64,000 nt of DNA, taken from Pseudonocardia hierapolitana. Lineage in GTDB: Bacteria > Actinomycetota > Actinomycetes > Mycobacteriales > Pseudonocardiaceae. This document shows, in pieces, positions 13,547 to 58,288 of this stretch; position 1 is the stretch's first letter, and each line of letters opens with the position of its first letter. Under the pieces are notes generated by a model. The model was not told the origin of the DNA. It was given only the letters and a program-made list of their open reading frames with translations, and searched no databases. Location: the NCBI RefSeq assembly GCF_007994075.1, contig NZ_VIWU01000001.1, forward strand, positions 3,658,001 through 3,722,000. The letters run 5' to 3'. Both the position numbers and the translations under genes were made by a program.

Positions 13547-13706
13547 GGCGGGCTTGCGGGCCCTACGAGGCGCCGCCTTCCGCAAGCCACTACGGCATCG
13601 TTCCGGACGGATGCCGGCCGCCGTGATCGTGCCACTCACCTGATCGGGGGGGACCGCTGGGCACACGCCGCGGCCGCCGGACGCCGGCCGCCACACCGCT
13701 GGTGAG

Positions 13707-13712
13707 TAATCT
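13707..13712 (+). promoter_or_regulatory. -10 element for a leaderless transcript
   Basis: TAATCT, ending 7 nt before GTG 13720. No Shine-Dalgarno is present, so transcription probably begins at or near the start codon. Confidence 0.5.
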
Positions 13713-13719
13713 CCGATCA

Positions 13720-16386
13720 GTGTCGACGCGTACCCAACCGGCGCCGCGAGCGTCGGAGAGGCTGCTCACGGGCTCGCCCGTGGCGCGTCGGCTCCTGCAC
13801 GAGGCCGCTGCGCGTTCCACGTCGACGCGCCGGGTGGACGTGATCGGTCCGGGCGGGCACGGCAAGTCCGCGTTGCTCGACGCGCTCGCCGCGGCGTTCG
13901 CGGCAGCGGGCCTGACCGTCCACCGGGACATCGCCGGTCTCACGGAGCTGGGAGCCGACGACGCGCTCCTGCTCGACGACGCCCACCTGCTCCCCCCGGA
14001 CGCCCTGGATCGGCTCGCGGTGCTCGCGGCGGCGCCCCGCGGCCACCTGGTCGTGGCACACCGGCCGTGGCCGCGGCCGCCCGGCACCGCCGCGCTCGGG
14101 AGCGCTCTCGCGGCCACCCGCCCGCCCGTGGTGCTGGAGGCGCTCGACCGCACCGGCGTCGCGGCGCGGGCCGCTCTGCTGCTTGGGGGTGACGGTCCGC
14201 CCGCGGAGCTGGTGGACCACGTGTTCGAGCAGACCGCAGGCCTGCCGGCGCTGGTCGATCGGCTGCTCGGGGCGCTCCTGGAACGGACCGGGTCGGACTG
14301 CGTACGGGGCGTGCCGCTGCCCGCCGAGCCGCCTGCCGGCCTGCTGGTGCAACTCGGCTACCTGGTGCACGGCCTCGGCGACGGGGTGGGCGCCCTGCTC
14401 GTGGCTCGCGCGCTCGGTGCCCCACTGGAGTCCGAGGTGCTCGTTCCGCTGCTGGGGCTCTCCCCCGACGACGGCGCGGCACAGCTCGACGAGCTGCTGG
14501 AGGCCGCGCGGGCCGCGGGCATGCTCACCGGCGACGGGAGGGCCGTCCCGCTCGTCTCCGCTGCTGTGCTGGCGCGCACCCCGCAGGCGTCCCGGGTGGA
14601 ACTGCGGCGCACCCTCGCCGAGATCGAGCTCGACCGCGGGGGCAACGTGCTCGCCGCGGCCCGCGGCCTGCTGGGCACGGGAGCCAGCGGATCCAGGGTC
14701 GCGGCCGTGTTCACCTCGGCCGCCGAGGAGGCGTTGCGCACCGGGTCACCGGCCGCGGGCGAGCTGTTCGACGCCGCCGTGCGCGCCGGGAGCCCCGCGC
14801 TCGGTCTCGCGGCCAGCCGCGCCGAGGCCGCCGTGCTCACCGGCGACCTCGACCTCGCGCTCACCCAGGCCGACCAGGTGCTCTCCGATCCCGACCGGGT
14901 GCTGCCCGCGGAGGCGGTGCGGGCCGGCACGGTCGCGGCCGCCGTCCTCGCCCACCGGGGGTTGCTCGGCCGCAGCGCGGACGTGTACCGGTGGATGAGC
15001 ACGGCGCTGGAGCCCGCCATGGGCCCCACCGCCGTGCTCGCCGTGCCCGCGCTCATCGGCACCGGCGCGCTCGACGAGGCCGGCAAGCTGCTGGAGGCGC
15101 CCGCGGCGGGCAACGGCATCCCGGTGCGCCCGCCCACCCTGCTGGCAGGCGCCGAGGAGCTGATGGCCCAGGGCGTCTACGACTCGGTGGCCGGGTCGCC
15201 CACCGCGGCGCTGTCGCAGCTGACGCGCGCGGCGTCGCTGCTGGAGGCCTCGCAGCGGGCGGCGCTGCTGCCGGACACCCCGGCCGCGCTCGCGGCGCTG
15301 GTCGCCGTGCACTGCGGTGAGCTCGACGTGGCGCAGTCGGTGCTGGAACGCGCCCTGCGGGTCGGGCTGGGCGGGCGCGGGTCGGTCACCCGCCACCGCC
15401 TCCTGCTCGGTTGGATCGCGCTGTTCCGCGGTGCCACCGGCGCCGCGCGTTCGGCACTCACCCTTGCCTCACCGCCGGGCGCCGTCCTGGAACCGCGCGA
15501 CGAGCTGCTGGCGGCGGCCCTGGACGTCGCGCTCGCCCGGCGGGCCGGCGACCTCGCCGTGCTCATGACGGCATGGGGCCGGGCGCGCGAGGCGATCGTG
15601 CGGCACCCGGTGGACCTGTTCGTGCTGCAGCAGCTCGGCGAGCTGTGGGTGGCCGCCACCAGGCTGAGGGAGTCGAGCTGGGTGCGTCCGCACCTCGACG
15701 AGGCCACCGACCTGCTCTCCCGGCTCGGCGACCCCGCGCTGTGGGCGGCGCCGCTGCACTGGTCGGGCCTGCAGGCCGCGATCCTGTCCGAGAACCGCGA
15801 GGCGGCGAAGCGGCACGCGGCGGCGCTCGAGGCGGCGGCCAACGGCAGCCGGTACGCGGCCGCGATGGCCTCGGCCGCCCAGCACTGGGTCCGGCTCCTG
15901 GACGCAGAGGTCGACGCCGCGGGCGTGGAGGCGGCCGCCCGTGGGCTGCACGCCGTCGGGATGGCGTGGGAGGGCGGCAAGCTCGCGGGCCAGGCCGCGA
16001 TCCGCACCCGCGACCGCAAGGCCATGACGGCCCTGCTCGGATGCGCCCGCGCGCTGCAGAGCACGGGTCCCGCATCGCGCACCGTGGCGGTGGAGGCCGA
16101 CACCGACGGCGGCCCGCGCACGGTGCCGGACACCACCGCGGAGGCCGAGCCCCTGCCGGATCCGGTGTCCGACGGCGCCGAGGGCCCGCTGAGCGACCGC
16201 GAGCGGGAGGTGGCCGGGCTCGTGCTGGAGGGCCTGACCTACCGGCAGATCGGCGAGCGCCTGTTCATCTCGGCCAAGACCGTGGAGCACCACGTCGCGC
16301 GGATGCGTCAGCGCCTCGGCTCGGGCAGCCGCGGCGAGCTGTTCGCCCACCTGCGCCAGATCGTCGGGCCCGGCACCGAGGCCTGA
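13720..16386 (+). CDS. IniR-like ATPase/LuxR-family transcriptional regulator
   Basis: An 888-residue regulator. Residues 43-50 (GPGGHGKS) are a Walker A loop and LLLDDAHLL is a Walker B, giving an N-terminal STAND-type ATPase. A long Ala/Leu-rich helical-repeat region (about 280-780) looks TPR-like. The C-terminal ~65 residues are a LuxR helix-turn-helix (LSDREREVAGLVLEGLTYRQIGERLFISAKTVEHH, quoted in part: TYRQIGERLF). The architecture matches the mycobacterial regulator of iniBAC (IniR), and iniC/iniA homologues follow 1.6 kb downstream. GTG 13720 is preferred because of the -10 seven nt before it; GTG 13702 is in frame. It likely senses a wall-stress signal and activates the ini-like genes. 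Confidence 0.8.
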   Translation: MSTRTQPAPRASERLLTGSPVARRLLHEAAARSTSTRRVDVIGPGGHGKSALLDALAAAFAAAGLTVHRDIAGLTELGADDALLLDDAHLLPPDALDRLAVLAAAPRGHLVVAHRPWPRPPGTAALGSALAATRPPVVLEALDRTGVAARAALLLGGDGPPAELVDHVFEQTAGLPALVDRLLGALLERTGSDCVRGVPLPAEPPAGLLVQLGYLVHGLGDGVGALLVARALGAPLESEVLVPLLGLSPDDGAAQLDELLEAARAAGMLTGDGRAVPLVSAAVLARTPQASRVELRRTLAEIELDRGGNVLAAARGLLGTGASGSRVAAVFTSAAEEALRTGSPAAGELFDAAVRAGSPALGLAASRAEAAVLTGDLDLALTQADQVLSDPDRVLPAEAVRAGTVAAAVLAHRGLLGRSADVYRWMSTALEPAMGPTAVLAVPALIGTGALDEAGKLLEAPAAGNGIPVRPPTLLAGAEELMAQGVYDSVAGSPTAALSQLTRAASLLEASQRAALLPDTPAALAALVAVHCGELDVAQSVLERALRVGLGGRGSVTRHRLLLGWIALFRGATGAARSALTLASPPGAVLEPRDELLAAALDVALARRAGDLAVLMTAWGRAREAIVRHPVDLFVLQQLGELWVAATRLRESSWVRPHLDEATDLLSRLGDPALWAAPLHWSGLQAAILSENREAAKRHAAALEAAANGSRYAAAMASAAQHWVRLLDAEVDAAGVEAAARGLHAVGMAWEGGKLAGQAAIRTRDRKAMTALLGCARALQSTGPASRTVAVEADTDGGPRTVPDTTAEAEPLPDPVSDGAEGPLSDREREVAGLVLEGLTYRQIGERLFISAKTVEHHVARMRQRLGSGSRGELFAHLRQIVGPGTEA

Positions 16387-16402
16387 GACGGCCACCCGTA
16401 TC

Positions 16403-16969
16403 TCAAGCCGGCTTGTGGCGCTGGTAGTGCCGGGCGACCCGGACGCGGTTGCCGCAGCGGGTGGCGGAGCACCAGCGGCGGCGAGGGTGGGCCGGGACGA
16501 ACAGCATGACGCAGCCGTCGGCCTCGCATTGACGGACCTTGGTGACGAGGGGGCCGGCCAGGAACTCGGCGCAGGCCTCGGCGAGCCATGCGGCCAGCTG
16601 TTCGGCGGGTGTCCCCGTGCGGCGGCGCGTCGCGGTGACCGCCGTGCCGCCCCAGGCGAGCTCGAGAACCGCGGGCGCGAGGCGCTGGGCCCGGTTGAGG
16701 GCGTCCAGGTCGTCCGCTGACGGCCGCTCGCCGCGGCGGACGCGGTCGAGGGCGTGGGCGACGTGGTCCCGGACGTTCCGGACGGCCTCGAGGCCGTCGA
16801 CGCCCGGTTCGGTGTCCGCCAGCTCGGCCGCCTCGCCGAACCGTTCGGACTGCAGCACCAGCCAGCTGCTCAGATCGGCGGGGGTGACCAGCAGATCGCC
16901 CGCGACCGGGTGGGTGTTCACCAGGTCCAGGGCCAGCGGTTCCCCGGTCAACGGGATCAGGTAGCTCAC
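16403..16969 (-). CDS. CGNR zinc-finger protein with ABATE domain
   Basis: A 188-residue putative stress-induced transcriptional regulator. The N-terminal ABATE domain begins GEPLALDLVNT. The C-terminal ~45 residues are a CGNR treble-clef zinc finger: two Cys in QCEADGC, then WCSATRCGNR, followed by a basic tail likely to bind nucleic acid. GTG 16969 is chosen because a TAACAT -10 lies 7 nt upstream and family members start there. It is divergent from an alpha/beta hydrolase, which it may regulate. It sits between the IniR-like gene and iniC but need not belong to that system. Confidence 0.85.
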   Translation of the reverse strand: MSYLIPLTGEPLALDLVNTHPVAGDLLVTPADLSSWLVLQSERFGEAAELADTEPGVDGLEAVRNVRDHVAHALDRVRRGERPSADDLDALNRAQRLAPAVLELAWGGTAVTATRRRTGTPAEQLAAWLAEACAEFLAGPLVTKVRQCEADGCVMLFVPAHPRRRWCSATRCGNRVRVARHYQRHKPA

Positions 16970-16976
16970 CGGGCTA

Positions 16977-17051
16977 ATGTTACATCGGGCCGTTGACAGG
17001 TTAGTCAGCCGGCGGCTATACCTAACGCAATATCTTCGACAGAAAGCGTTA
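16977..17051. promoter_or_regulatory. Divergent promoters of the CGNR gene and the hydrolase
   Basis: On the minus strand TAACAT (16977-16982) sits 7 nt before the CGNR GTG. On the plus strand TTGACA (16993-16998) and TATACC (17017-17022) are 18 bp apart, a near-consensus housekeeping promoter for the hydrolase. An inverted repeat TAACGC-N17-GCGTTA (17023-17028, 17046-17051) follows the -10 and could bind a repressor. Confidence 0.65.
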
Positions 17052-17054
17052 GCC

Positions 17055-17948
17055 ATGGTCTCCCCCCTGATCGCCCGCACCGCCCACCGCCACCTCGACG
17101 TCGACGGGGTCCGGGTCTTCTACCGCGAGTCGCTGCCCGAGCGGTCGGATGCGCCGGTGCTGTTGCTGCTGCACGGCTTCCCGTCCGCCTCTCACCAGTT
17201 CCGGCGCCTCATCGACGTCCTGGGCTCCCGTTACCGGCTCGTCGCGCCCGACTATCCCGGCTTCGGGCACACCGAGGCCCCGGAGGACTTCGCCTACTCC
17301 TTCACCCGGCTCGCCGACGTCACCGAGGGCTTCGTGCGGGCGCTCGGCCTCACCCGATTCGTCATGTACGTGTTCGACTTCGGCGCGCCGGTCGGTTTCC
17401 GGCTCGCCGAGCGGCACCCCGAGTGGATCGCGGGCCTGGTCGTGCAGAACGGCAACGCCTACGACGAAGGACTGTCCGACGGCGCCCGTGACTTCATCGC
17501 GCTGCGCCGCGAGACGCCAGGAGCCCACGAGTCGATCCGTGATCTGCTGACCCCCGCCGGTACGCGCATGCAGTACGAGACCGGCGTGCGCGAACCGGCG
17601 GCACTGGCCCCGGACGGCTGGACGCTCGACCAGTACTTCCTGGACCTACCCGGCCGCAAGGAGGCGCAGCTCGCGCTGGCGTTCGACTACCACTCGAACG
17701 TCGAGCGCTACGAGCGTTGGCAGAGCTGGCTGCGCACGTACACCCCGCCCACGCTCATCACGTGGGGCGTCGGCGACCCGTTCTTCCCCGAGCCCGGCGC
17801 CCGCGCCTACCTGCACGACCTCCCGGAGGCCGAGCTGCACCTGTTCGACGCAGGCCACTTCGCCCTGGAGACCCACCTGCCGGAGATCGCCCCGCTCGTC
17901 GCCGACTTCCTCGACCGCACCTGGAACCGGACGGGTGTTCCCCGCTAG
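17055..17948 (+). CDS. Alpha/beta-fold hydrolase, epoxide hydrolase/haloalkane dehalogenase type
   Basis: A 297-residue hydrolase. The oxyanion-hole motif HGFP is followed by a nucleophile elbow VFDFGAP with Asp (D108) rather than Ser, an acid D241 (GVGDPFF) and a catalytic His H268 (DAGHFALE). An Asp nucleophile points to epoxide hydrolase or dehalogenase chemistry through an ester intermediate. The cap domain lies at about 135-215. The ATG at 17055 has a weak ribosome site; a strong TTGACA promoter lies upstream. It is divergent from the CGNR gene. Substrate unknown. Confidence 0.86.
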   Translation: MVSPLIARTAHRHLDVDGVRVFYRESLPERSDAPVLLLLHGFPSASHQFRRLIDVLGSRYRLVAPDYPGFGHTEAPEDFAYSFTRLADVTEGFVRALGLTRFVMYVFDFGAPVGFRLAERHPEWIAGLVVQNGNAYDEGLSDGARDFIALRRETPGAHESIRDLLTPAGTRMQYETGVREPAALAPDGWTLDQYFLDLPGRKEAQLALAFDYHSNVERYERWQSWLRTYTPPTLITWGVGDPFFPEPGARAYLHDLPEAELHLFDAGHFALETHLPEIAPLVADFLDRTWNRTGVPR

Positions 17949-17980
17949 CAGGCGCCCGCGCACAAGATCGGCGGTACAAC

Positions 17981-17997
17981 GGCGCCGTGGCGGCGCC
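17981..17997. terminator. Short hairpin between convergent genes
   Basis: GGCGCCG-TGG-CGGCGCC, a 7-bp perfect stem with a 3-nt loop, 33 bp after the hydrolase stop and 6 bp from the iniC stop. Confidence 0.5.
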
Positions 17998-18002
17998 CCT
18001 CG

Positions 18003-19499
18003 CTACTCGCCGTAGGCCTGGCGCATGCCGGCGAGGATGCCCTCGCAGCTGCGAACCACCTCGCGCGACACGTCGGCGACCGCACGGCTGGACATCGGGC
18101 TCTCGCCCCTGCGCCGCCAGCGACCCGCCGCGTCGAGGGCGGCGTCCCACACCTCCTGCGGGCCCGCGTCGGGCTCCAGGCCGAGCCGGGCCGCGGCCGA
18201 CCCGCCGTCGCCGCCCAGCAGCCGCTCGGCCTCCTGCAACACGTCCTTGGGCAGCTTGATCGCGCCGGCGCGCAGTGCGGAGAGCAGCCGAAGCTCGGCG
18301 AACTCGTGCGCTCCCGCGAGGATGCGCTCCACGTCGGCCGCGAGCGGCGCGGTGTCCGGACGGGGTTCGCGGGTGAGCACCAGGTCGACCGCCAACAGCG
18401 CCGACCGCGCCTTGAGCAGGTCGCGGCGCTCCGTGAACTGCGTGGCGAGCACGCTGCGCAGCTCGTCGAGGCCGCTGCGCTTGACGAGCTCGGCCGAGAT
18501 GGCGTTCGGGTCGGTCATGCCCTGGCGGATCAGCGTGGTCGCAAGCCGCACGCCGAACATCCCGAACCGCTCCATCAGCTGGGCACGGGTCTGCGAGTCG
18601 GGGGCGTCGCGCGCGTCGAGCTCGGTGCGGGAGAACCGGTCGGCCGACAGCAGCATCGACTCGATGTCAGACCGGGGCATCGCGGCCAGCGCGGTGAGCG
18701 CGGTGAACTCGCCCTGGCGCATCGTGCGGCCGGTCTGGGCCAGCAGTCCCGCGACGGCCACCACGGTCTGGCACAGCCCGCGGATCTTGTCGTCGGCCCG
18801 GTAGCGCCGGGCGATCTTCCGGGCGGACGTGAGCGCGTTCAGCCGGCCCGCGCCGATCTCGTCGGCACGCGAGAGCACGCCGATCGTGTTCACCGGCGTG
18901 GCCCGGGCGACGCCCTGGTCGAAGAACGACTCGAGGAATCGCACGTCCGTGTTGTGCAGGTGCCGCATCAGGTAGATGACGGCGTCGGCCTGGGTGGGGG
19001 CGTCCTCCGGCGCGAGGAACGCGCCCGCACGCGACGACGTGTCCGCCGACAGCGATGCGATGCCCGGGGTGTCGATGAGCGTCTGCGTGCGCAGGCTCTG
19101 CGACGGCCATTCCACCTCGAGCTTGTCGACCTTCTCCACCGGATAGCCGTGCAGGTCGAACGAGAGCCCACCGGTGGAGCGGTTGATCGTGAGCTGCTGC
19201 GGCTCCGAGCCGCGCGGGTACATCGTGACGCGGGGGAACTGGGCATCGACGTACCAGGTGACGACGCGCGTGCACTCGCCGGCGTCCGTCGGGGCGATCT
19301 GCTCCCCGACCAGCGCGTTGAGCAGCGTCGACTTGCCCGCCTTCACCTTGCCGGCGATGGCGACCCGCAGCGGCTCGTCGAACCGCTGGAGGTTGTGGGT
19401 GAGCCAGCCGTGCGCCTGCGGGCTGTCCTGGTAGGCCTCGATGGCGTGGCGCAGCAGGATCCGGACCGCGGCGCCGAGCGGGGGTGCGGGCGCACTCAT
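18003..19499 (-). CDS. iniC: Dynamin-like GTPase IniC
   Basis: A 498-residue dynamin-family GTPase, close to mycobacterial IniC (about 490). The P-loop GKVKAGKS is at 50-57, the G3 motif DTPGIASL follows at about 140 and a weak G4 (SRADEI) at about 210. The C-terminal half is helical, as in bacterial dynamin stalks, with no obvious membrane helix. Its ATG overlaps the TGA of iniA (ATGA), so the two GTPases are made together and probably act as partners at the membrane. In mycobacteria this pair is induced by wall-active drugs and has been linked to membrane fission and drug tolerance. Confidence 0.9.
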   Translation of the reverse strand: MSAPAPPLGAAVRILLRHAIEAYQDSPQAHGWLTHNLQRFDEPLRVAIAGKVKAGKSTLLNALVGEQIAPTDAGECTRVVTWYVDAQFPRVTMYPRGSEPQQLTINRSTGGLSFDLHGYPVEKVDKLEVEWPSQSLRTQTLIDTPGIASLSADTSSRAGAFLAPEDAPTQADAVIYLMRHLHNTDVRFLESFFDQGVARATPVNTIGVLSRADEIGAGRLNALTSARKIARRYRADDKIRGLCQTVVAVAGLLAQTGRTMRQGEFTALTALAAMPRSDIESMLLSADRFSRTELDARDAPDSQTRAQLMERFGMFGVRLATTLIRQGMTDPNAISAELVKRSGLDELRSVLATQFTERRDLLKARSALLAVDLVLTREPRPDTAPLAADVERILAGAHEFAELRLLSALRAGAIKLPKDVLQEAERLLGGDGGSAAARLGLEPDAGPQEVWDAALDAAGRWRRRGESPMSSRAVADVSREVVRSCEGILAGMRQAYGE

Positions 19500-21319
19500 G
19501 CGGCACCTCCCGCCGTCACGGCCGGTCGTCTGTCGCTCACGAGCGCCTTGGCGCGCTGCGCCATGCCGTCGATGCGGGCCAGCTCGGCCTTGAGGTCCTT
19601 GATCCGCTTCTCCCGGCCTGACGTGTTGGTCTTCAGGGCGTTCTGCGCGGCCTGCACCGATGCGGCGATCGAGGTGCTCATCTCCTCGGCGAGCGCGCTG
19701 AAGTGGTCGCGCAGCTGGCGCTGGGTGCGCCGCAGCATGTCGGTGGAGTCCTTGCCCACCTGGAACGTGACCTCGTCGATGTGCTTGCGCACCCCGTTCT
19801 TCGCGTCGCTGCGGCGCTTCTGCAGCATCCGCTTCTTCTCGTCGCGCACGGCCTTGATGCCCAGGAGCACGCCGGCCGGGGCGCCCGCGAAGATCGGCAG
19901 CCCGGCCAGCGTGCCCAGCATGCCGAACATCAGCATGCCGCCGTAACCGCCCTGCATGCCTTTGAGGAGCTGTCCTCCGCGGGTGAGTTTCTCCACCTCC
20001 GGCTTGGTGAGCGCGTCGACCTTGCCGGCGATGCCCTCGTCGTCGAACCTCAGCTCGGGCATGGCGATGTCGGCGCCCGCCGCGAAGTGCTCGGCCACCT
20101 GCGCCGCGAGCCAGCGCGCCCGCTCGGCCGCCCAGACGAAGTTGGCCGATGCCGCCGAGGAGATCTGCTGGTGGAACCAGTCGGAGAACTGTTCCCACAC
20201 CTCGGCCGGGTCGGAGTCGTCGATGAGCTGCTCGGCCTCGCGCCCGATCGTGCGCAACCGGTCGCGCAGGTCGTAGCCGATGTCGGACTGGAGGTCGGCC
20301 ACGCCGTCGTTCAGGGTGATCTGCCAGCGGGACGAGCGCTGCTTGAGCTCGTCGGCACGTGCCTTCGCCTTGGTCAGGTCCTCGACGAGGGCGTTGACCT
20401 TCTGCGGGTCCTCCAGGATGGAGAGCTCGGCCTTCATGCCGGACGACAGCTGCTCGGCCACCGAGAGCACGTCGTGGCTCGTGGAGCGCCGGTCGAGCTC
20501 GTCGGACTGCGCCACGACCTTGTGCAGCAGGTAGTCGACGAGCGGCTTGAAGCCGGACTCGTCCATCAGCTCGGTGTCCTGCTCCTTGGCCGCGTGCAGC
20601 CGCAGCACCGACGACACCGGGAAGATCTCGGCGTCGACACCCGCCCTGCGGAGGTGGCCGCGGTCGAGCTCCTCGATGCGCCGCCAGTGCGGGTAGAGGT
20701 CGGTCTTGGTGAGCACGCACGCGACGTTGGGGCACAGCTTCATCGCCGCGTCGAGGAACTCGAGCTCGGGGGCGGTGTACTCCTGGGCGGCGTCGGAGAC
20801 GAGCAGCACGGCGTCGGCGCCGGGGAGGGCGGACATCGTGGCCGCGCCGTGGGCCGATCCGAGGCCTCCGACGCCCGGGGTGTCGACGAGCACCAGCCCG
20901 CCGGACAGCAGCTTGCGCGGCAGCCCCACCTCGGCGTAGCTGATCAACGCCTTGTTGCCCGGGTTGCCCGCCTCGGAGACGTGCTGTGCCAGCTGGGTGG
21001 CCTGCACCGCGGTGCGCTCGGCGGAGTCGGCCGACTCGCTCTCGCGCACCAGCTCGGCCTTGGTGGTCTCGGCGTACTTCACCACGGTGGGCACCGCGGT
21101 GGCGACGTCGTCGTCCACCGGGCACACGGGGGCGTTCACCAGCGCGTTGACCAGCTGGCTCTTGCCCTGCTTGAACTCGCCGACGATGAGCACGCGCACA
21201 TCGGGGTCGGCGAGCCGCTTGCGGGTCTGGAGCAGTCGCCCACCGAGGTCGGGACGCTCGTAGGCGGTGGTTGCTTTCAGCGCGAGGTCGACCAACTCGA
21301 CCGCTGCGGGAACCGCCAC
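19496..21319 (-). CDS. iniA: Dynamin-like GTPase IniA
   Basis: A 607-residue dynamin-family GTPase (mycobacterial IniA is about 640). Motifs: G1 GEFKQGKS (47-54), G2 Thr in AVPT, G3 DTPGVGGL, G4 TKTDLYPHW. A hydrophobic, Gly-rich segment at about 458-486 (MLMFGMLGTLAGLPIF) looks like the membrane-inserting tip of IniA. The ends are helical. The start is GTG 21319 with GAAGGA upstream. It overlaps iniC and lies 174 bp downstream of an iniB-like gene on the same strand, reproducing the iniB-iniA-iniC order, though a strong hairpin sits in that gap. Inferred role: membrane remodelling under envelope stress. Confidence 0.92.
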   Translation of the reverse strand: MAVPAAVELVDLALKATTAYERPDLGGRLLQTRKRLADPDVRVLIVGEFKQGKSQLVNALVNAPVCPVDDDVATAVPTVVKYAETTKAELVRESESADSAERTAVQATQLAQHVSEAGNPGNKALISYAEVGLPRKLLSGGLVLVDTPGVGGLGSAHGAATMSALPGADAVLLVSDAAQEYTAPELEFLDAAMKLCPNVACVLTKTDLYPHWRRIEELDRGHLRRAGVDAEIFPVSSVLRLHAAKEQDTELMDESGFKPLVDYLLHKVVAQSDELDRRSTSHDVLSVAEQLSSGMKAELSILEDPQKVNALVEDLTKAKARADELKQRSSRWQITLNDGVADLQSDIGYDLRDRLRTIGREAEQLIDDSDPAEVWEQFSDWFHQQISSAASANFVWAAERARWLAAQVAEHFAAGADIAMPELRFDDEGIAGKVDALTKPEVEKLTRGGQLLKGMQGGYGGMLMFGMLGTLAGLPIFAGAPAGVLLGIKAVRDEKKRMLQKRRSDAKNGVRKHIDEVTFQVGKDSTDMLRRTQRQLRDHFSALAEEMSTSIAASVQAAQNALKTNTSGREKRIKDLKAELARIDGMAQRAKALVSDRRPAVTAGGAA

Positions 21320-21392
21320 GCCGGTCCTTCCCTCCTCGTCGTCAGATGCTGACCCTCGCCCCGATACTGGCTCACCGGATCGGCCGCTACGA

Positions 21393-21440
21393 CACCGGCC
21401 CCGCCACCTCGGGTACTCCCGTGGGGTGGCGGGGCCGGTG
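21393..21440 (-). terminator. Hairpin between iniB-like 1 and iniA
   Basis: Perfect 16-bp arms (21393-21408, 21425-21440) with a 16-nt loop, 54 bp past the iniB-like 1 stop. It would end or attenuate transcription before iniA, setting a higher level of the IniB-like protein than of the dynamins. Confidence 0.7.
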
Positions 21441-21493
21441 GCGCGTCACCCGGGGAGGCTACAGCGCCGGTCACCGGGCGGTGCGGCCAGTGA

Positions 21494-22378
21494 TCAGACG
21501 ACCTCGGCGCTGTAGGACTCCTGGGTGCTGGCGTGGCTGTCCGTCGTGGTCGTGTCGTTGTCCACGTAGGTGCTGTTGTCGGCGCCGTCCTGGTAGGAGC
21601 TGTACGAGTCGTTGTCCTCGGTGACCGAGGTGTCCTGCCAGTCGGCCGTGGTGTTGCCGGAGTCGTTCGTCGAGTTGTCGCTCGCGTCGACGGCCGTGTC
21701 GTTGTCCTCGCGGTTCGAGTTGTCGACGGCAGAGCTGCCGTCGACCGCGAGGGAGCTGCCGTCGTCGACGGAGACGTCGCCGTCGATCTCGGTGGAGGAG
21801 GTGTCGCCCTCGCCGAAGCCGACGGTGTTGTCGTCGCCGTCCACGACCTCGTTGTCGTCCCCGTCGATCGAGGTGTTGTCGTCCCCGTCCACGTTGTCGT
21901 CGCCGACGATGTTGTCGTCGCCCGTCGTGATGTCGGAGTCCTCGATGTCGTCGCCCGCCGCCACCGAACCGTCGCCGGAGGCCACCACGGAGTCGACGTC
22001 GATGTCCTGGTCGAAGTCACCGCCACCCGTGTCGATCTGCTGGTTGATCGAGTTGTCGGTGATCGTGTCGCCCTCGTTGGTGATGTAGTTGTTGGTGACG
22101 TAGGTGTCCAGGTAGCGGATCGCGGCCTCCTGGTTGCTCTCACCGGGCTCCGGCGCGGGCGCGGGCGGCGGCGGGGGCACGTGAACGTGGTTGCCGCCGG
22201 TGTTGTACTCGCGGCTGAAGTCGGCGTCCTGCCGGTCCTGCAGCAGGACCAGTGCCTCACGGATGTCTTCGGGCGACACGTCCCCGCACGAGGCGAGGAA
22301 TCCCTCCGGGTCCTCGCGGTACGCGCTCGGGTCGCGGAGCAGGTTGAGGAGCAGTTCGAGCAGGTTCGTCGTCGACAT
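21494..22378 (-). CDS. IniB-like protein 1 with Asp/Asn-rich repeat region
   Basis: A 294-residue, very acidic protein. Residues 1-60 (LLELLLNLLRDPSAYREDPE...) match the IniB N-terminal domain, a small helical module shared with the two other copies here. A FSREYNTGGN motif and a Pro linker follow. The rest is low-complexity Asp/Asn/Gly/Ser/Thr with recurring GDDN units every 5-7 residues (GDDNIVGDDNVDGDDN), suggesting a beta-solenoid with stacked Asx residues or metal binding. No signal peptide or membrane helix is seen. It lies upstream of iniA/iniC on the same strand, the position of iniB in mycobacteria. Function unknown; a scaffold for the dynamins is possible. Confidence 0.82.
   Translation of the reverse strand: MSTTNLLELLLNLLRDPSAYREDPEGFLASCGDVSPEDIREALVLLQDRQDADFSREYNTGGNHVHVPPPPPAPAPEPGESNQEAAIRYLDTYVTNNYITNEGDTITDNSINQQIDTGGGDFDQDIDVDSVVASGDGSVAAGDDIEDSDITTGDDNIVGDDNVDGDDNTSIDGDDNEVVDGDDNTVGFGEGDTSSTEIDGDVSVDDGSSLAVDGSSAVDNSNREDNDTAVDASDNSTNDSGNTTADWQDTSVTEDNDSYSSYQDGADNSTYVDNDTTTTDSHASTQESYSAEVV
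22026..22094 (-). repeat. 69-bp near-identical segment shared by iniB-like 1 and 3
   Basis: Matches 23883-23951 with one mismatch in 69 bp. It encodes the TNEGDTITDNSINQQIDTG block. Identity at third codon positions over such a stretch points to recent duplication or gene conversion. Confidence 0.85.
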
Positions 22379-22425
22379 CGTGGCTCAACTCCATGGGTGG
22401 GGATGCCGGGTTCGGGGTCGTCCGG

Positions 22426-22544
22426 CGTTGGTCCGAACGCTATGGCTATCGGCCATCCGGGCCATCGGGGATCGCCCAGAGTCCGGGATTCGCACCCGTA
22501 CGGGGATCCGGGGCCCGCCCCGTAGGGGGTTCGGGGATAGGGGG
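22426..22544 (-). promoter_or_regulatory. Putative control region of iniB-like 1
   Basis: Contains three elements also present upstream of iniB-like 3: a CGTT-N6-AACG dyad (22426-22439), a 15-mer GATCCCCGATGGCCC on the minus strand (22459-22473) and a G-rich motif TTCGGGGATAGGGGG on the plus strand (22530-22544). A perfect palindrome CCCGTACGGG (22495-22504) and a CGGGG-cccg-CCCCG hairpin (22509-22522) are also here; the latter could end the iniB-like 2 transcript. Confidence 0.6.
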
Positions 22545-22558
22545 AAACCGGGAGGGGA

Positions 22559-23170
22559 TCAAGCCCCTTCGGACCCGGGCGGGCCGCCGTCGGGGCCGTC
22601 CGCTGCGTCCTCGGAGAGGTCCGCGAAGCTCGTGAACGCGCCGAGGTCGTCGACGTCGTCGAAATCGTCGAGGTGGCCGATGTCGTCGAGGTCGGCGGTG
22701 ATCTGGTCGTCGCGACCGTGATCCGGCTCGGCGGCGGCCCATCCGCCGATCGCGTCCGCCGGCTCCGACCCGGCTCCGTACCCGGTGGCGTCACCGGCTC
22801 CGAAACCGCCGAGCGGAACCCCGCCGAGGTCGTGGTCCTGGTCGTCGGCGGGGTCGGTGTCGGGGTCTGCCCACTGCTCGGCCACAGGGTCGTGCGGGCC
22901 CGCGAGGTAGCGGGCCAGGTACTCCACGGCGGCCTCGTGGCCGTCGCCGGCAGGCGGAGGTGGCGGCGGGGCGGTCGTGGCGTCGAAGGAGTAGTCGACG
23001 GTCTGGGTGTCCTGCACGAGCACGAGCGCGTCGTGCACGTCGGCGGGCGTGAGACCGGCCAGGCCGTGGGCCGTGAGCGTGCCCTGCGGGTCGTGCCCGA
23101 AGTCGCCGCGCAGCCCTGCGTCGGTGAGGAGCGCCTGCAGGAACTCCATCAGGGACAGCGTCTCGGCCAT
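22559..23170 (-). CDS. IniB-like protein 2 (N-terminal domain with acidic tail)
   Basis: A 203-residue protein. Residues about 6-65 are the IniB-type helical domain (LMEFLQALLTDAGLRGDFGHDP...LTPADVHDALVLVQDTQTVDYS), clearly related to copies 1 and 3. The tail differs: a Pro run, then Asp/Gly/Ala-rich acidic sequence without the GDDN repeats. No signal peptide or membrane segment. The ATG at 23170 has GGAG upstream and places the domain at the N-terminus as in the other copies. It lies between the two repeat-bearing genes, all on the same strand. Function unknown. Confidence 0.78.
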   Translation of the reverse strand: MAETLSLMEFLQALLTDAGLRGDFGHDPQGTLTAHGLAGLTPADVHDALVLVQDTQTVDYSFDATTAPPPPPPAGDGHEAAVEYLARYLAGPHDPVAEQWADPDTDPADDQDHDLGGVPLGGFGAGDATGYGAGSEPADAIGGWAAAEPDHGRDDQITADLDDIGHLDDFDDVDDLGAFTSFADLSEDAADGPDGGPPGSEGA

Positions 23171-23299
23171 CGACTGGTCTCCGTGCGTGGTGGGATCGGA
23201 CAGAACGGTAGGTCCGGGACGGCCCGCGGCAATCGGGGATGCGGCACCGTCCACCGATCCCGCATTAGGGGATCCGGCCATCGGGGTGGTCCCGCAACG

Positions 23300-23340
23300 C
23301 CGCGACCCCGCCCCCGGCGATGCCGGTGGCGGGGCCGCGG
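23300..23340 (-). terminator. Nested hairpin downstream of iniB-like 3
   Basis: Outer 13-bp arms (23300-23312, 23328-23340) with one mismatch enclose an inner hairpin CCGGC-GAT-GCCGG (23314-23326). It starts 14 bp past the iniB-like 3 stop and lies before iniB-like 2. Confidence 0.65.
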
Positions 23341-23353
23341 TCGGCGCAGTCGA

Positions 23354-24223
23354 TCAGGCCTGGATCGAGACGTCCGAGTCGACGCTGCTGTGGTCGTCCG
23401 TGCTGGTCGAGTCGTTGTCCTCGCGGTAGCTGTTGTCCGAGCTGTCCTCGTAGTTGCTGTACGAGTCGTTGTCCTCGCTGGTCGAGTTGTCCTCCCACGA
23501 GGAGGTCTCGTTGAACGAGTCGTTCACCGAGTTGTCGCTGGCGTCGATGTCGGTGTCGTTGTCCTCGTAGTTCGAGTTGTCGACCGAGGAGCTGCCACCG
23601 ATCGCGAACGAGCTGCCGTCGTCGACGTTGACGTTGCCGTCGATCTCGGTCGAGGACACGTCGCCGTCGCCGAAGCCGGTGGTGTTGCCGTCGCCGACCA
23701 CGGCCGAGTTGCCGTCGCCGGAGATCGAGGTGTTGCCGTCACCCTCGATGTTGTTGTCACCGACGATGTTGTCGTTGCCGGTGGTGATCGTCGAGTCCTC
23801 GATGTCGTCACCGGCGGCCACGGCGCCGTCACCCGAGGCGACGGTGGAGTCGACGTCGATGTCCTGCTCGAAGTCGCCGCCGCCCGTGTCGATCTGCTGG
23901 TTGATCGAGTTGTCGGTGATCGTGTCACCCTCGTTGGTGATGTAGTTGTTGTAGATGTACTTGCTGACGTAGTCGGCCGCCGACTCGGAGCCGTCCACCG
24001 GCTCGGGGGCGGCGATGTTGACCTCGTTGCCGCCGGTGTTGTACTCGCGGCTGAAGTCGGCGTTCTGGCTGTCGTCGTGCATGAGTTCGAGCGCGTCCCG
24101 GACGTCGTCAGCGCTGAGGTTGCCCAGGCCGGCGTCGTCGAGGGCCTGGTCCGGGTTGTCCGCGAAGTCCTGGCGGGCCTCGTCGTCGGAGAGCAGGTTG
24201 AGAATGAACTCCATGAGCGTCAT
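23354..24223 (-). CDS. IniB-like protein 3 with Asp/Asn-rich repeat region
   Basis: A 289-residue acidic protein, full-length paralogue of copy 1. The IniB-type N-terminal domain is at 1-60 (LMEFILNLLSDDEARQDFADNPD), followed by FSREYNTGGN and then GDGN/GDNN repeat units and a C-terminal SxDNDS-rich region (SEDNDSYSNYEDSSDN). No secretion signal is evident. The ATG at 24223 is fixed by GAGGAGA upstream; longer frames run through G-rich promoter sequence. It is divergent from the Hsp70-like gene across a 265-bp region and shares promoter elements with copy 1. It may form a rigid or metal-binding solenoid; function unknown. Confidence 0.82.
   Translation of the reverse strand: MTLMEFILNLLSDDEARQDFADNPDQALDDAGLGNLSADDVRDALELMHDDSQNADFSREYNTGGNEVNIAAPEPVDGSESAADYVSKYIYNNYITNEGDTITDNSINQQIDTGGGDFEQDIDVDSTVASGDGAVAAGDDIEDSTITTGNDNIVGDNNIEGDGNTSISGDGNSAVVGDGNTTGFGDGDVSSTEIDGNVNVDDGSSFAIGGSSSVDNSNYEDNDTDIDASDNSVNDSFNETSSWEDNSTSEDNDSYSNYEDSSDNSYREDNDSTSTDDHSSVDSDVSIQA
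23883..23951 (-). repeat. Second copy of the 69-bp shared segment
   Basis: Partner of 22026-22094, one mismatch, same reading frame within iniB-like 3. Confidence 0.85.
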
Positions 24224-24267
24224 GCCGATGTCTCCTCTGGGTTGCGTCACTGCGGTTGGGTAGGCCG

Positions 24268-24379
24268 CGTTGAACACAACGTAGGGCGCAGGAGTTGCTG
24301 GGCCATCGGGGATCCCCCACAGTTGCGGGAAGCCTCCGTTCGGGGGATTAGGGGGACCCCCGATAGGGGGACTCGGGGG
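24268..24379. promoter_or_regulatory. Divergent control region of iniB-like 3 and the Hsp70-like gene
   Basis: Holds the CGTT-N6-AACG dyad (24268-24281), the shared 15-mer (24300-24314, GATCCCCGATGGCCC on the minus strand) and TTCGGGGGATTAGGGGG (24339-24355). Four G5 tracts on the plus strand (24342-24346, 24351-24355, 24366-24370, 24375-24379) could fold a G-quadruplex, and CCCCC-GATA-GGGGG (24357-24370) can form a hairpin. Closer to the Hsp70-like start there is a GACCGGT direct repeat (24449-24455, 24461-24467). Confidence 0.6.
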
Positions 24380-24488
24380 AGGTCCTTGGTCCAATAGGGC
24401 CCGCGGAGGGGGCTAACGACAGGCCGGGAGCCCGCGATGCGATGGTGGGACCGGTCTGCTGACCGGTTGTCGGGGTGAGGGGAAAGGT

Positions 24489-26387
24489 ATGGCGTACCAG
24501 CTCGGGATCGACCTGGGGACGACGTTCACCTGCGCCGCAGTGTGTCGCTCCTCGGGCAACCGCTGGGGAGAACCCGAGGTCGTCACCCTCGGTAGCCGCG
24601 GCGCCACGGTCCCGTCGGTCGTGTTCGTCGGGCAGGACGGCGCGATCGTGGTCGGTGAGGCCGCCGAACGCCGGGCCCTGACCGACCCGGACCGGGTGGT
24701 CCGCGAGTTCAAGCGCCGCATCGGTGATCCGACTCCCGTGATGGTGGCGGGCCGGCCGTGGGCCCCGCAGGACCTGTCCGCGTGGCTCGTCCGCTGGGTG
24801 GTCGACCGCGTGGCGGAGCGTGAGGGCGGTCCCGCCGAGCGGATCGCCGTCACCCACCCCGCCGCATGGGGGCAGCACAAGAAGGAACTGCTGTCCGCCG
24901 CCCTCGCCAACCAGGGCCTCACCGTCACGTTCATGGCCGAGCCGCAGGCAGCCGCCACGAGCTACGCCGCGAACGAGCGGGTGGCCGCCGGGTCCACGAT
25001 CGCCGTCTACGACTTCGGCGGCGGCACGTTCGACGCCGCGATCGTGCGCAAGGGCGACGTCGACTTCAGGCTGGTCGGGAGGCCGGAGGGCCTCGAGCGG
25101 CTCGGCGGCATCGACTTCGACCAGGCCGTGTTCGAGCACGTGCTCGAGGGCATGCCCGACGCCTTCGCCGAGCTCGACGACACCGATCCGGCCGTGCTCT
25201 CGGCCGTGGCGCGCATCCGGCGCGAGTGCACCGAGGCCAAGGAGGCCCTCTCCAGCGACACCGAGGTGTCGATCCCGGTGCTGCTCCCCTCGTCCCGCGG
25301 TTCCGTCCGGCTGCACCGCAGCGAGTTCGAGGCGATGATCCGCCCGCAGGTGGAGGACACCGTCGCGGCGCTGCGATCCGCGGTGATCTCGGCGGGCTTC
25401 GCGCCGGACCAGCTCACCGCCGTGCTGCTCGTCGGCGGCTCCTCGCGGATCCCGCTCGTCGCACAGCTGGTCTCCGAGCAGCTCGGCCGGCCCGTCGCGG
25501 TGGACGCCGACCCGAAGAACGCCATCGCCAAGGGTGCTGCTCTCTCGCTGGCGCCCCAGCCCGCCGCGGCGCCTGCGGGCGCCCCGGCGATGCCGCCGGC
25601 GGCACCGCCTGCCCGGCCGCCGCGGATGGCTCCGCCGCCTCCCGGAATGCCGGGAATGCCCTACAGCGGGCCGTACAACGAGGCCCCCTACAACGACGGT
25701 CCCTACAACGACGGTCCCGGCGCCCCGCCGCCTCACGGCGCCCGCCCCGGCCCGTACGGGCCGCCGGGCCGCCCCGCTCCCGAACCGGCTGCCGCGATGC
25801 TCACGGAGCCGGTCCAGCAGCGGTCCCGGCACGCCCACCAGCAGCCGGAGCCGGAGTGGGACTACGACGACTACGACGACCGCGAGCCGGATCTGCCGCA
25901 GCGGCGCCGGCCCAGCGCGATGGTGATCGGGCTGGGCGCGCTGCTGGCCGCGGGCGCCGTGGTGCTGGCGTTCGTCCTGTGGCCGACCGGATCTGCCACG
26001 CCCGCGGACAGCACGGGTAGCGAGAGCACCCTCTCCGACTCCGCGCCGTCCGACTCCGGCGGGAGCAGCGGTGGCGGCCGCAGCTCCGGCGGCGGGAACG
26101 AGCCGGGCGCCGCGGTGCCGCCGCCCGGCGAGGCGACCAGCGGTCCGACGACCTCCGCGGAGGAGGAGCCGCCGGCCGCGACCAAGACGACGACCAAGGC
26201 CAGCGAGCCCACGAAGGACAGCGACGCGACCAAGGAGCCCGACAGCGACTCCGAGGGCGACTCGAGCGGCAGCGACTCCGACTCCGAGTCCGGTGGTGGG
26301 GGCGAGGGCGACAGTAACGCGGCCGGTCCCGCTGCCGATCTCGAGCAGGTGGGGCCCGAGGCCCCGGCGGATCCGCCGACCCTCTGA
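24489..26387 (+). CDS. Membrane-anchored Hsp70-type ATPase without substrate-binding domain
   Basis: A 632-residue protein. Residues 1-355 are an Hsp70/actin-fold ATPase: phosphate-1 loop GIDLGTTFTCA, connect motif YDFGGGTFDAA, adenosine motif LLVGGSSRIPL. The peptide-binding domain of DnaK is missing. Instead a Pro/Tyr/Asn-rich linker (about 360-470, with repeats such as APYNDGPYNDGP), one membrane helix at about 478-500 after Arg residues, and a Ser/Thr/Asp/Glu/Gly-rich tail (500-632) probably outside the cell. GAGGGGAAAGG precedes the ATG. It is divergent from iniB-like 3 and is followed 31 nt later by a small membrane protein. It may couple a cytoplasmic ATP switch to the wall; not a general chaperone. 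Confidence 0.88.
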   Translation: MAYQLGIDLGTTFTCAAVCRSSGNRWGEPEVVTLGSRGATVPSVVFVGQDGAIVVGEAAERRALTDPDRVVREFKRRIGDPTPVMVAGRPWAPQDLSAWLVRWVVDRVAEREGGPAERIAVTHPAAWGQHKKELLSAALANQGLTVTFMAEPQAAATSYAANERVAAGSTIAVYDFGGGTFDAAIVRKGDVDFRLVGRPEGLERLGGIDFDQAVFEHVLEGMPDAFAELDDTDPAVLSAVARIRRECTEAKEALSSDTEVSIPVLLPSSRGSVRLHRSEFEAMIRPQVEDTVAALRSAVISAGFAPDQLTAVLLVGGSSRIPLVAQLVSEQLGRPVAVDADPKNAIAKGAALSLAPQPAAAPAGAPAMPPAAPPARPPRMAPPPPGMPGMPYSGPYNEAPYNDGPYNDGPGAPPPHGARPGPYGPPGRPAPEPAAAMLTEPVQQRSRHAHQQPEPEWDYDDYDDREPDLPQRRRPSAMVIGLGALLAAGAVVLAFVLWPTGSATPADSTGSESTLSDSAPSDSGGSSGGGRSSGGGNEPGAAVPPPGEATSGPTTSAEEEPPAATKTTTKASEPTKDSDATKEPDSDSEGDSSGSDSDSESGGGGEGDSNAAGPAADLEQVGPEAPADPPTL

Positions 26388-26418
26388 GACACCGAAACAC
26401 CGAGAAGGGAATACCGCC

Positions 26419-26682
26419 GTGCTGCGGATGGGAGCGTTGGTCGTCGGCCTGGAGCTGGCGGCCTTGCTCGTGGCGTACGGGTACTTCGGGTGGCCGATCC
26501 TGGTGATCGGGGTGCCCGTGATCGTCCTCACGCTGATCGCGCTCCTGGTCGTCCGCGCTTCGGAGGCACCGCGCCGGAAGCTGGAGGAGCATCGGGCGTC
26601 CCGCTGGGACCCCGATGCCGCGCTCCCCGGCGGCCTGATGAGCGGCTTCTTCGAGGTCTCCAGGCAGCGTCCCCGGCCCTGA
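26419..26682 (+). CDS. Small membrane protein downstream of the Hsp70-like gene
   Basis: An 87-residue protein with two hydrophobic segments (about 5-20 and 24-47, GWPILVIGVPVIVLTLIALLVV) and a basic, Trp-containing C-terminal tail facing the cytoplasm. GTG 26419 has AGAAGGGA upstream. The gap to the Hsp70-like gene is 31 nt, so they are probably one transcript. I do not recognise a family. It could be a membrane partner of the anchored ATPase. Confidence 0.7.
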   Translation: MLRMGALVVGLELAALLVAYGYFGWPILVIGVPVIVLTLIALLVVRASEAPRRKLEEHRASRWDPDAALPGGLMSGFFEVSRQRPRP

Positions 26683-48022: not shown

Positions 48023-48453
48023 GGCTTTCCTCCCAGGGCTGGCGCCGCGGGTGGTGGACCGCGGGCCGTTGCGGAGCAGGGTAGACCCGTGCTCCCCGCC
48101 GGCCGGCTGCATCGTTCCGGCTGATCAGGCCGCAACCTACTCGCCGGTAACAGCGGAGCGCGATGTGACCCTAACCCGCCGTCGGGGATCGCGCCGCCGG
48201 GTACGAGGCGGAAATTCGTCACTCAACCGGTCCAGATCGAGGGCTCTCGATCTTCTCGTTCACCCCTGCGGCGCGCCGAATTGCTGTCCGTGTCACTCGG
48301 CTCTGACGCGCGGGCGACCCTCTATGCTCGCCCTGGTCAGCATGGTCTACTCGGGCGCGAAATGCCCGACAGTCCAGGGTCGGGCGTCCACCAGCCCGAG
48401 GTGGTCGGGTACGCGGCGAACTCGGGTTGGCAGCGCCACGAGGAGGAGCCGTC
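48023..48453. other. 431-bp intergenic region, divergent promoters
   Basis: No convincing gene. It separates the Fe-S reductase start from the secretion-like operon. TATGCT (48323-48328) is a candidate -10 for the operon, and TCGGGC-N7-GCCCGA (48351-48369) is a short dyad or hairpin in the leader. AGGAGGA at 48441 serves the first operon gene. I see nothing else recognisable. Confidence 0.5.
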
Positions 48454-56372: not shown

Positions 56373-56393
56373 CTTGAGTGAAGGCAGCTCAAG
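56373..56393 (+). promoter_or_regulatory. HspR-binding HAIR box 2
   Basis: CTTGAGT-N7-GCTCAAG, 13 of 14 consensus bases, 26 bp upstream of the dnaK start. With box 1 it predicts HspR autorepression of the operon. Confidence 0.9.
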
Positions 56394-56419
56394 CTACCCC
56401 ATCATCGGAGGCACACACC

Positions 56420-58284
<1,865 letters not shown>

Positions 58285-58288
<4 letters not shown>

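Follow-up and report, generated by a model that had tools for sequence, protein, structure and literature searches.

An Hsp70-type gene accompanies the iniA–iniC dynamin pair in Pseudonocardia hierapolitana and across its order

A locus resembling the mycobacterial ini system lies in a 64,000-nucleotide stretch of the Pseudonocardia hierapolitana genome (RefSeq assembly GCF_007994075.1, contig NZ_VIWU01000001.1, positions 3,658,001 to 3,722,000; this whole stretch is called the window, and gene coordinates refer to it). Divergent to its iniB–iniA–iniC strand stands a gene for an Hsp70-type protein without a substrate-binding domain (24489..26387, + strand), and we found that many actinobacterial families keep such an Hsp70-like gene beside their dynamin pair. 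This suggests an overlooked core part of an ini-related system. The dynamin pair, the IniB protein or proteins, the regulator IniR and the Hsp70-type gene are supported as a conserved unit, and the finding is a variant and extension of the known ini system, to which it adds a hitherto unrecognised core component, rather than a system of a new kind. At the focal locus, the minus strand carries IniB-like genes 3, 2 and 1 in this order, followed by iniA and iniC, which overlap by 4 nt (ATGA); the IniR-like gene lies convergent beyond iniC, with a CGNR/ABATE gene and an alpha/beta hydrolase gene between the two. The genome is 8.86 Mb in size, and the closest named relatives at the locus are Pseudonocardia species.

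The association was assessed in two sets of loci: a relatives' set consisting of the best 80 of 442 loci found through IniA, mostly from the focal clade, and an order sample of 80 regions chosen by hand to be diverse, almost all taken from the IniA-positive genomes (112/248) in the order. In the relatives' set, a divergent Hsp70-like gene was present within 6 kb at 49 of the 51 iniA–iniC loci with at least 6 kb of upstream sequence, a count that leaves out 26 loci with less than 6 kb upstream (15 have Hsp70) and 3 without adjacent iniC (2 have one); the misses were L105 and L147, the latter with an Hsp70 gene 5.2 kb downstream. In the order sample, the divergent gene was found at most 6 kb upstream of 62 of 71 iniA–iniC loci, leaving out five loci without iniC and four with less than 6 kb upstream (three of the latter have a divergent Hsp70). 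At eight of the nine misses, an Hsp70-like gene stands at another place in the examined DNA, on the same strand, farther upstream or behind iniC, and L244 is the sole case among the 71 with none in the examined DNA. As a control for general synteny, we searched the same loci for other genes of the window: IniR was detected at 68/71 and Hsp70 at 69/71, and ten other window genes at 0 to 5 loci each (among them IspD 0/71, CGNR 0/71 and alpha/beta hydrolase 1/71), IniA and IniC being present at 71/71 by choice of the set. None of the five lone dynamins without iniC in the order sample, all from one genus, has a divergent Hsp70 within 6 kb. A first-pass annotation of the window had named the lack of conserved co-localisation beforehand as the outcome that would speak against its idea of an enlarged envelope-stress machine, and the idea survived the check. 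What stood of it is the conserved unit of dynamins, IniB, IniR and Hsp70; the Hsp70 gene, being order-wide, is no addition of an enlarged locus.

Outside these two sets, loci of a Mycobacterium-type genus and a few from beyond the order were compared as well. Within the Mycobacterium-type genus, phylogenetic profiling could not tell iniA carriers apart from other genomes, Hsp70-like relatives being nearly everywhere, and co-localisation was therefore used there: among the 150 matches listed, an Hsp70-like match lay within 8 kb of 75 of 83 iniA places, and of the eight misses, five rest on matches outside those listed and three on separate contigs. In a class-wide sample, IniA matched at E <= 1e-40 in 27 of 196 genomes. 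Among three loci outside the order, L262 has a divergent Hsp70-like gene and L264 a same-strand one, and L263 has none in about 7 kb upstream.

The gene order around Hsp70 raises the question of whether its partner could be the regulator. At 60 of 65 order-sample loci the Hsp70 gene comes first and IniR follows on the same strand (frames were read from stop to stop, making the spacing inexact), and the Hsp70-like protein could accordingly be a sensor for IniR: bound to the regulator, either at the membrane or in the cytosol, it would let go of it or activate it when the wall is stressed, much like the maltose transporter with MalT; the proximity to the dynamins would then be a by-product of shared regulation. 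Boot et al. liken IniR to MalT and place the sensing in the periplasm (PMC5760070), and the degenerate ATPase sites described below fit a binding platform. Against it, in the relatives' set IniR is convergent behind iniC at 40 of 63 loci and the Hsp70 gene is still divergent to the iniB strand; a dynamin pair with Hsp70 occurs with no IniR match in the examined DNA at L229, L230, L242, L248 and L264 (a 10-kb piece); and a dynamin pair at 5.94 Mb of the focal genome has an Hsp70 gene and an IniR match of only 19 bits. We consider this explanation rather unlikely, though the strongest of the competitors.

The focal genome itself holds several copies of the module. Its 8 strong Dynamin_N matches fall into four pairs, and each pair has, no more than 10 kb away, one of the genome's 8 non-DnaK Hsp70-family frames; two further, weak Dynamin_N matches (32–38 of 168 positions) were not counted. 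Modules lie at 3.68, 2.41 and 5.63 Mb. A more distant dynamin pair at 5.94 Mb (L084, 5446-11312) is followed by a 743-residue Hsp70-type frame and has no IniB match. A fifth, degenerate case is found at 5.20 Mb (L082, 7930-11346), where a 1139-residue Hsp70 frame ends in a C-terminal beta-propeller and the match of the neighbouring open reading frame (ORF) to IniA is confined to the later portion (residues 321-541). Compared with their paralogues at L079, the proteins of the window give 0.46 for IniA, 0.41 for IniC and 0.44 for Hsp70; the partners differ alike. In genomes with several modules, the nearest outside locus was the same for IniA and Hsp70 in 19 of 29 modules, and of the remaining ones several differ only among close relatives and L067, L207, L208, L248 and L151 are without clear agreement. 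Across 170 loci, the Spearman correlations of distances were 0.71 for IniA–Hsp70, 0.84 for IniC–Hsp70 and 0.91 for IniA–IniC, values that are inflated as some genomes are included twice (e.g., L064 and L099) and shared ancestry alone raises them. Judged by such sequence comparisons, paralogous modules tend to be inherited as units. At L079, the second module, a small acidic repeat ORF seems to sit between the divergent Hsp70 gene and iniB.

These modules bear on another explanation, passive synteny, by which the Hsp70-type gene would be the leftover of a local dnaK duplication that stayed put. It draws on the position of dnaK, which lies in the window at a distance of about 30 kb and, at L210, L213, L220, L225, L226 and L227, is found no more than about 10 kb downstream of iniA. 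The other neighbours of the focal locus have not been kept, however, Hsp70 genes stand beside dynamin pairs at three other places of the focal genome, and the partners tend to agree by module; passive synteny is already disfavoured, and we regard it as very improbable.

A further link between the Hsp70-type gene and the ini genes is found in the DNA between them. The divergent promoter region common to the Hsp70-type gene and IniB-like 3 (24224..24488) contains blocks conserved among relatives and a cluster of CCCC(T/G)A boxes (24306..24369, - strand) with two overlapping matches to a triple-box pattern; another cluster with one such match lies upstream of IniB-like 1 (22523..22543, - strand). 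Of 6 genome-wide matches to the triple-box pattern, the focal locus accounts for 3, at these two places; the reversed control pattern gives 5. The word CCCCTAA occurs in 52 of 58 Hsp70–iniB intergenic regions of the order sample in comparison with 2.75 in dinucleotide shuffles, the word having been found in the same 58 regions in which it was counted. In the order-sample intergenic regions, TCCCC(G/T)A faces iniB 83 times and the opposite way 10 times. A two-box search of the window gave a weak signal, with 2 matches against 0.39 expected and 5 of 100 shuffles reaching that number. As chromatin immunoprecipitation shows M. tuberculosis IniR bound upstream of iniBAC (PMC5760070), the CCCC(T/G)A boxes are a candidate IniR operator.

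The focal protein consists of an ATPase domain, a proline-rich linker, one transmembrane helix and a tail rich in Ser, Thr, Pro and Glu. Pfam HSP70 (PF00012) matches two stretches, the best covering residues 85-352 and ending at position 370 of the 599 of the profile. The nucleotide-binding domain with the catalytic residues expected of an Hsp70 is thus present, the equivalents of D10, K71, E175, D199, T204 and D206 all being intact. AlphaFold2 (28-sequence alignment) gave block means of the predicted local distance difference test (pLDDT) mostly above 90 for residues 1 to about 355; the remainder, including the tail, is disordered apart from a helix at 477-496. In Foldseek the domain groups with DnaK-type nucleotide-binding domains, the highest template modelling (TM) score, normalised to target length, being 0.86 with a DnaK chain. 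Positive charges flank the helix asymmetrically, with three before it and none after it within 12 residues. A substrate-binding domain is absent from the focal protein, where the profile match stops at 370/599 and a query with that domain of DnaK finds nothing; among 185 Hsp70-like frames, some of which are cut by contig ends, the only match to this query was L080, an unlinked frame of the focal genome.

Among relatives, both the catalytic residues and the membrane anchor vary. We aligned the Hsp matches above 75 bits that are not DnaK-like and found at least one of the six catalytic positions altered in 52 of 60 distinct order-sample sequences, in a single alignment of distant sequences in which individual positions may be misplaced. 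By hydropathy, 48 of 77 order-sample proteins exceed the transmembrane cut-off and 29 fall below it; proteins that stop shortly behind the ATPase domain, with no transmembrane segment by this measure, include L231–L234, L236, L254, L255 and others, from several genera. The motif RxGDxxP is found in 119 of 142 distinct sequences (68/73 of the catalytically intact and 51/69 of the degenerate ones), the DnaK of the focal genome being without it, and the loose pattern PxxW in 133 of 142; both are candidate contact surfaces, and the constant part is the domain itself. The ATPase residues are mostly lost outside the focal clade, and "ATP-driven transmembrane factor", as the first-pass annotation had it, is not the conserved property: "ATP-driven" agrees with the intact residues of the focal protein but not with most of its relatives, and "transmembrane" fits the focal protein and the larger share of the order sample but fails for the remainder.

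Hsc70 acts on clathrin coats, and by analogy the Hsp70-type protein could be an ATP-driven remodelling factor that dismantles dynamin or IniB assemblies. The complete catalytic set of the focal protein and the match of its fold to the DnaK nucleotide-binding domain favour such a role. It is, however, hard to reconcile with the missing substrate-binding domain, with the many order-sample sequences that differ at catalytic positions and yet keep the locus, and with the failure to find a J-protein or GrpE match above the cut-off among the ini genes and neighbours scanned, and we think it improbable.

With moderate confidence we favour the reading that the Hsp70-fold protein is a core member of the ini module, acting as a switch or platform for the dynamins, IniB and IniR. 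Its gene is kept beside iniA–iniC across families, tends to be co-inherited on duplication and has promoter boxes in common with iniB; from this we infer a switch or platform rather than a folding chaperone. The cytoplasmic nucleotide-binding domain of the focal protein would hang on one transmembrane helix with a wall-facing tail, and the condition of the wall would determine the place and time at which the IniA/IniC pair and the IniB scaffold come together on the membrane, with IniR increasing the dose; in most relatives, the switch would be one without ATPase residues, presumably a binding platform. The ATPase domain, the charge bias around the helix and the long low-complexity tail suggest that the focal protein is a receptor, recruiter or clamp. 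Several observations weigh against this reading. The receptor, recruiter or clamp idea is limited by the catalytic differences (52/60) and the missing transmembrane segments (29/77), and because of the latter a wall-facing receptor is not the universal form. Where IniR trails Hsp70 on one strand (60/65), the link could be with IniR alone, and the triple box is absent from both paralogous modules of the focal genome. The control with lone dynamins is weak, coming from one genus, and in the relatives' set two of the three loci counted as having no adjacent iniC do have Hsp70; at these two, the IniC match lies upstream (L157) or the locus is cut by a contig end (L167). In the Mycobacterium-type genus, the Hsp70-like protein has matches in 115 of 118 genomes, with 1–7 per genome and genomes without iniA included, and iniA in 82 of 118, from which the family also has work outside ini. 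Finally, IniA and Hsp70 matches are both missing from 19 of 53 regions centred on IniB in relatives.

A bolder generalisation, which we find possible but doubtful, is that it is common for the dynamin pairs of actinobacteria to have an Hsp70-fold protein as a dedicated partner. Dynamin A, dynamin C and an Hsp70-fold switch would make up a three-part membrane machine in which, through a wall-facing tail, damage to the wall would control membrane fission or repair; in mycobacteria it would have become nucleotide-dead and be overlooked as "dnaK-like". As a conserved and often membrane-bound partner, the Hsp70-fold protein is a concrete candidate for the sensor or recruiter that the ini dynamins have been missing, and dynamin would here be paired with an Hsp70-type protein in bacteria.

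PMC5760070 describes iniBAC as having the mycobacterial promoter with the strongest induction by first-line wall drugs. The mycobacterial iniR–iniB*–iniB–iniA–iniC locus (PMC5760070, PMC6715688) shares with ours the IniR-type regulator, the IniB N-domain genes and the IniA–IniC pair, as well as the dnaK-like gene beside M. smegmatis iniR. The focal locus differs in that IniR is convergent behind iniC and not upstream, that three IniB-domain genes are present, that the Hsp70-type protein has intact ATPase residues and a small membrane protein behind it, and that IniR and IniB-like 1 score below curated cut-offs. Two statements of the first-pass annotation conflict with the literature: mycobacterial loci do not have a single iniB, a second IniB-related gene, iniB*, being described beside it (PMC5760070), and the Hsp70-like component is not foreign to the described mycobacterial system, the "dnaK-like" gene beside M. 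smegmatis iniR having been reported by Boot et al. in 2017 (PMC5760070), where the legend of Fig. 2 refers to genes inserted in M. smegmatis. Our data indicate that a dnaK-like gene beside the ini locus is not peculiar to one species. In the open-licence literature searched we found no description of an order-wide association of Hsp70 with ini; one sentence, in the available text of PMC5760070, links a dnaK-like gene to the ini locus. With DnaK/Hsp70 chaperones the focal protein shares the fold of the nucleotide-binding domain, but it lacks their substrate-binding domain and has instead a single transmembrane helix, a low-complexity tail and the family-typical RxGDxxP. Campylobacter Cj-DLP1/2 and Streptomyces DynA/DynB are likewise pairs of neighbouring dynamin genes whose products are believed to assemble into a hetero-oligomer (PMC6104087); "Hsp70" appears in that paper only in the reference list, and no IniB or IniR genes are mentioned in the portions at hand.

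The gene content read by the first-pass annotation from the sequence was borne out on all four points: an IniR-like ATPase/LuxR regulator, an iniA–iniC pair with a 4-nt overlap, three same-strand IniB-domain genes and a divergent membrane-anchored Hsp70-type ATPase followed by a small membrane protein. The iniA-like dynamin-family GTPase (19496..21319, - strand) scores 74.5 bits with Dynamin_N and 441.8 bits with the solved IniA structure 6j72, and has G1 and G3 motifs; with simple patterns, G1 was found in 183 and G3 in 154 of 195 IniA sequences, 12 being without G1. According to PMC6715688, IniA cuts membranes in vitro in a GTP-dependent manner. The adjacent iniC-like GTPase (18003..19499, - strand) completes the pair typical of the ini system and scores 48.3 bits with Dynamin_N. 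The G1 pattern is present in all 161 IniC sequences examined and the canonical G4 pattern [TN]K[TACSV]D in none of them, the focal one included, and the Dynamin_N profile still matches; IniC may thus differ in nucleotide preference.

Upstream on the same strand as iniA, two of the three IniB N-domain genes exceed the 40-bit cut-off of the IniB_NTERM profile and one falls below it. IniB-like 1 (21494..22378, 33.0 bits) has a helical N-domain and a conserved GD/N-rich repeat core, IniB-like 2 (22559..23170, 46.8 bits) an N-domain and an acidic tail without the repeat core, and IniB-like 3 (23354..24223, 56.4 bits), the first gene of the iniB–iniA–iniC strand, again an N-domain and repeat core. 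IniB-like 1 and 3 are 64% identical in alignment; the latter weakly matches the Rv0340 family (24.3 bits, cut-off 100), and AlphaFold2 is confident only for its N-terminal helical domain (mean pLDDT 47, predicted TM score 0.24). Among 63 Hsp-linked loci of the relatives' set, 7 have three IniB genes, 15 two, 31 one and 10 none detected, and three IniB domains occur at 0 of 65 order-sample loci. IniB-domain genes also stand alone (L051, L053, L054, L070, L074–L078 and others). The three genes that had attracted attention are real, but the triplication is a local expansion and not a feature of the system.

The IniR-like STAND/LuxR-type regulator (13702..16386, + strand) matches NCBIfam IniR (NF038181) with 425 bits over model positions 3-825 of 827 and has a GerE/LuxR C-terminus (PF00196); at 425 against the 750 bits of the equivalog level, it is IniR-like and no called equivalog. 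Directly 3' of the Hsp70-type gene, a small hydrophobic membrane protein is encoded at 26419..26682 with a GTG start, or from 26428 with ATG (+ strand); it has relatives behind Hsp70 genes within the same genus and, outside the genus, at 0 of 69 order-sample loci. The window also contains genes for an Fe-S/CCG-domain protein (45611-48112) and dnaK (56378-58288), both of which we take to be iniBAC neighbours in M. tuberculosis, and it may thus preserve an ancestral neighbourhood.

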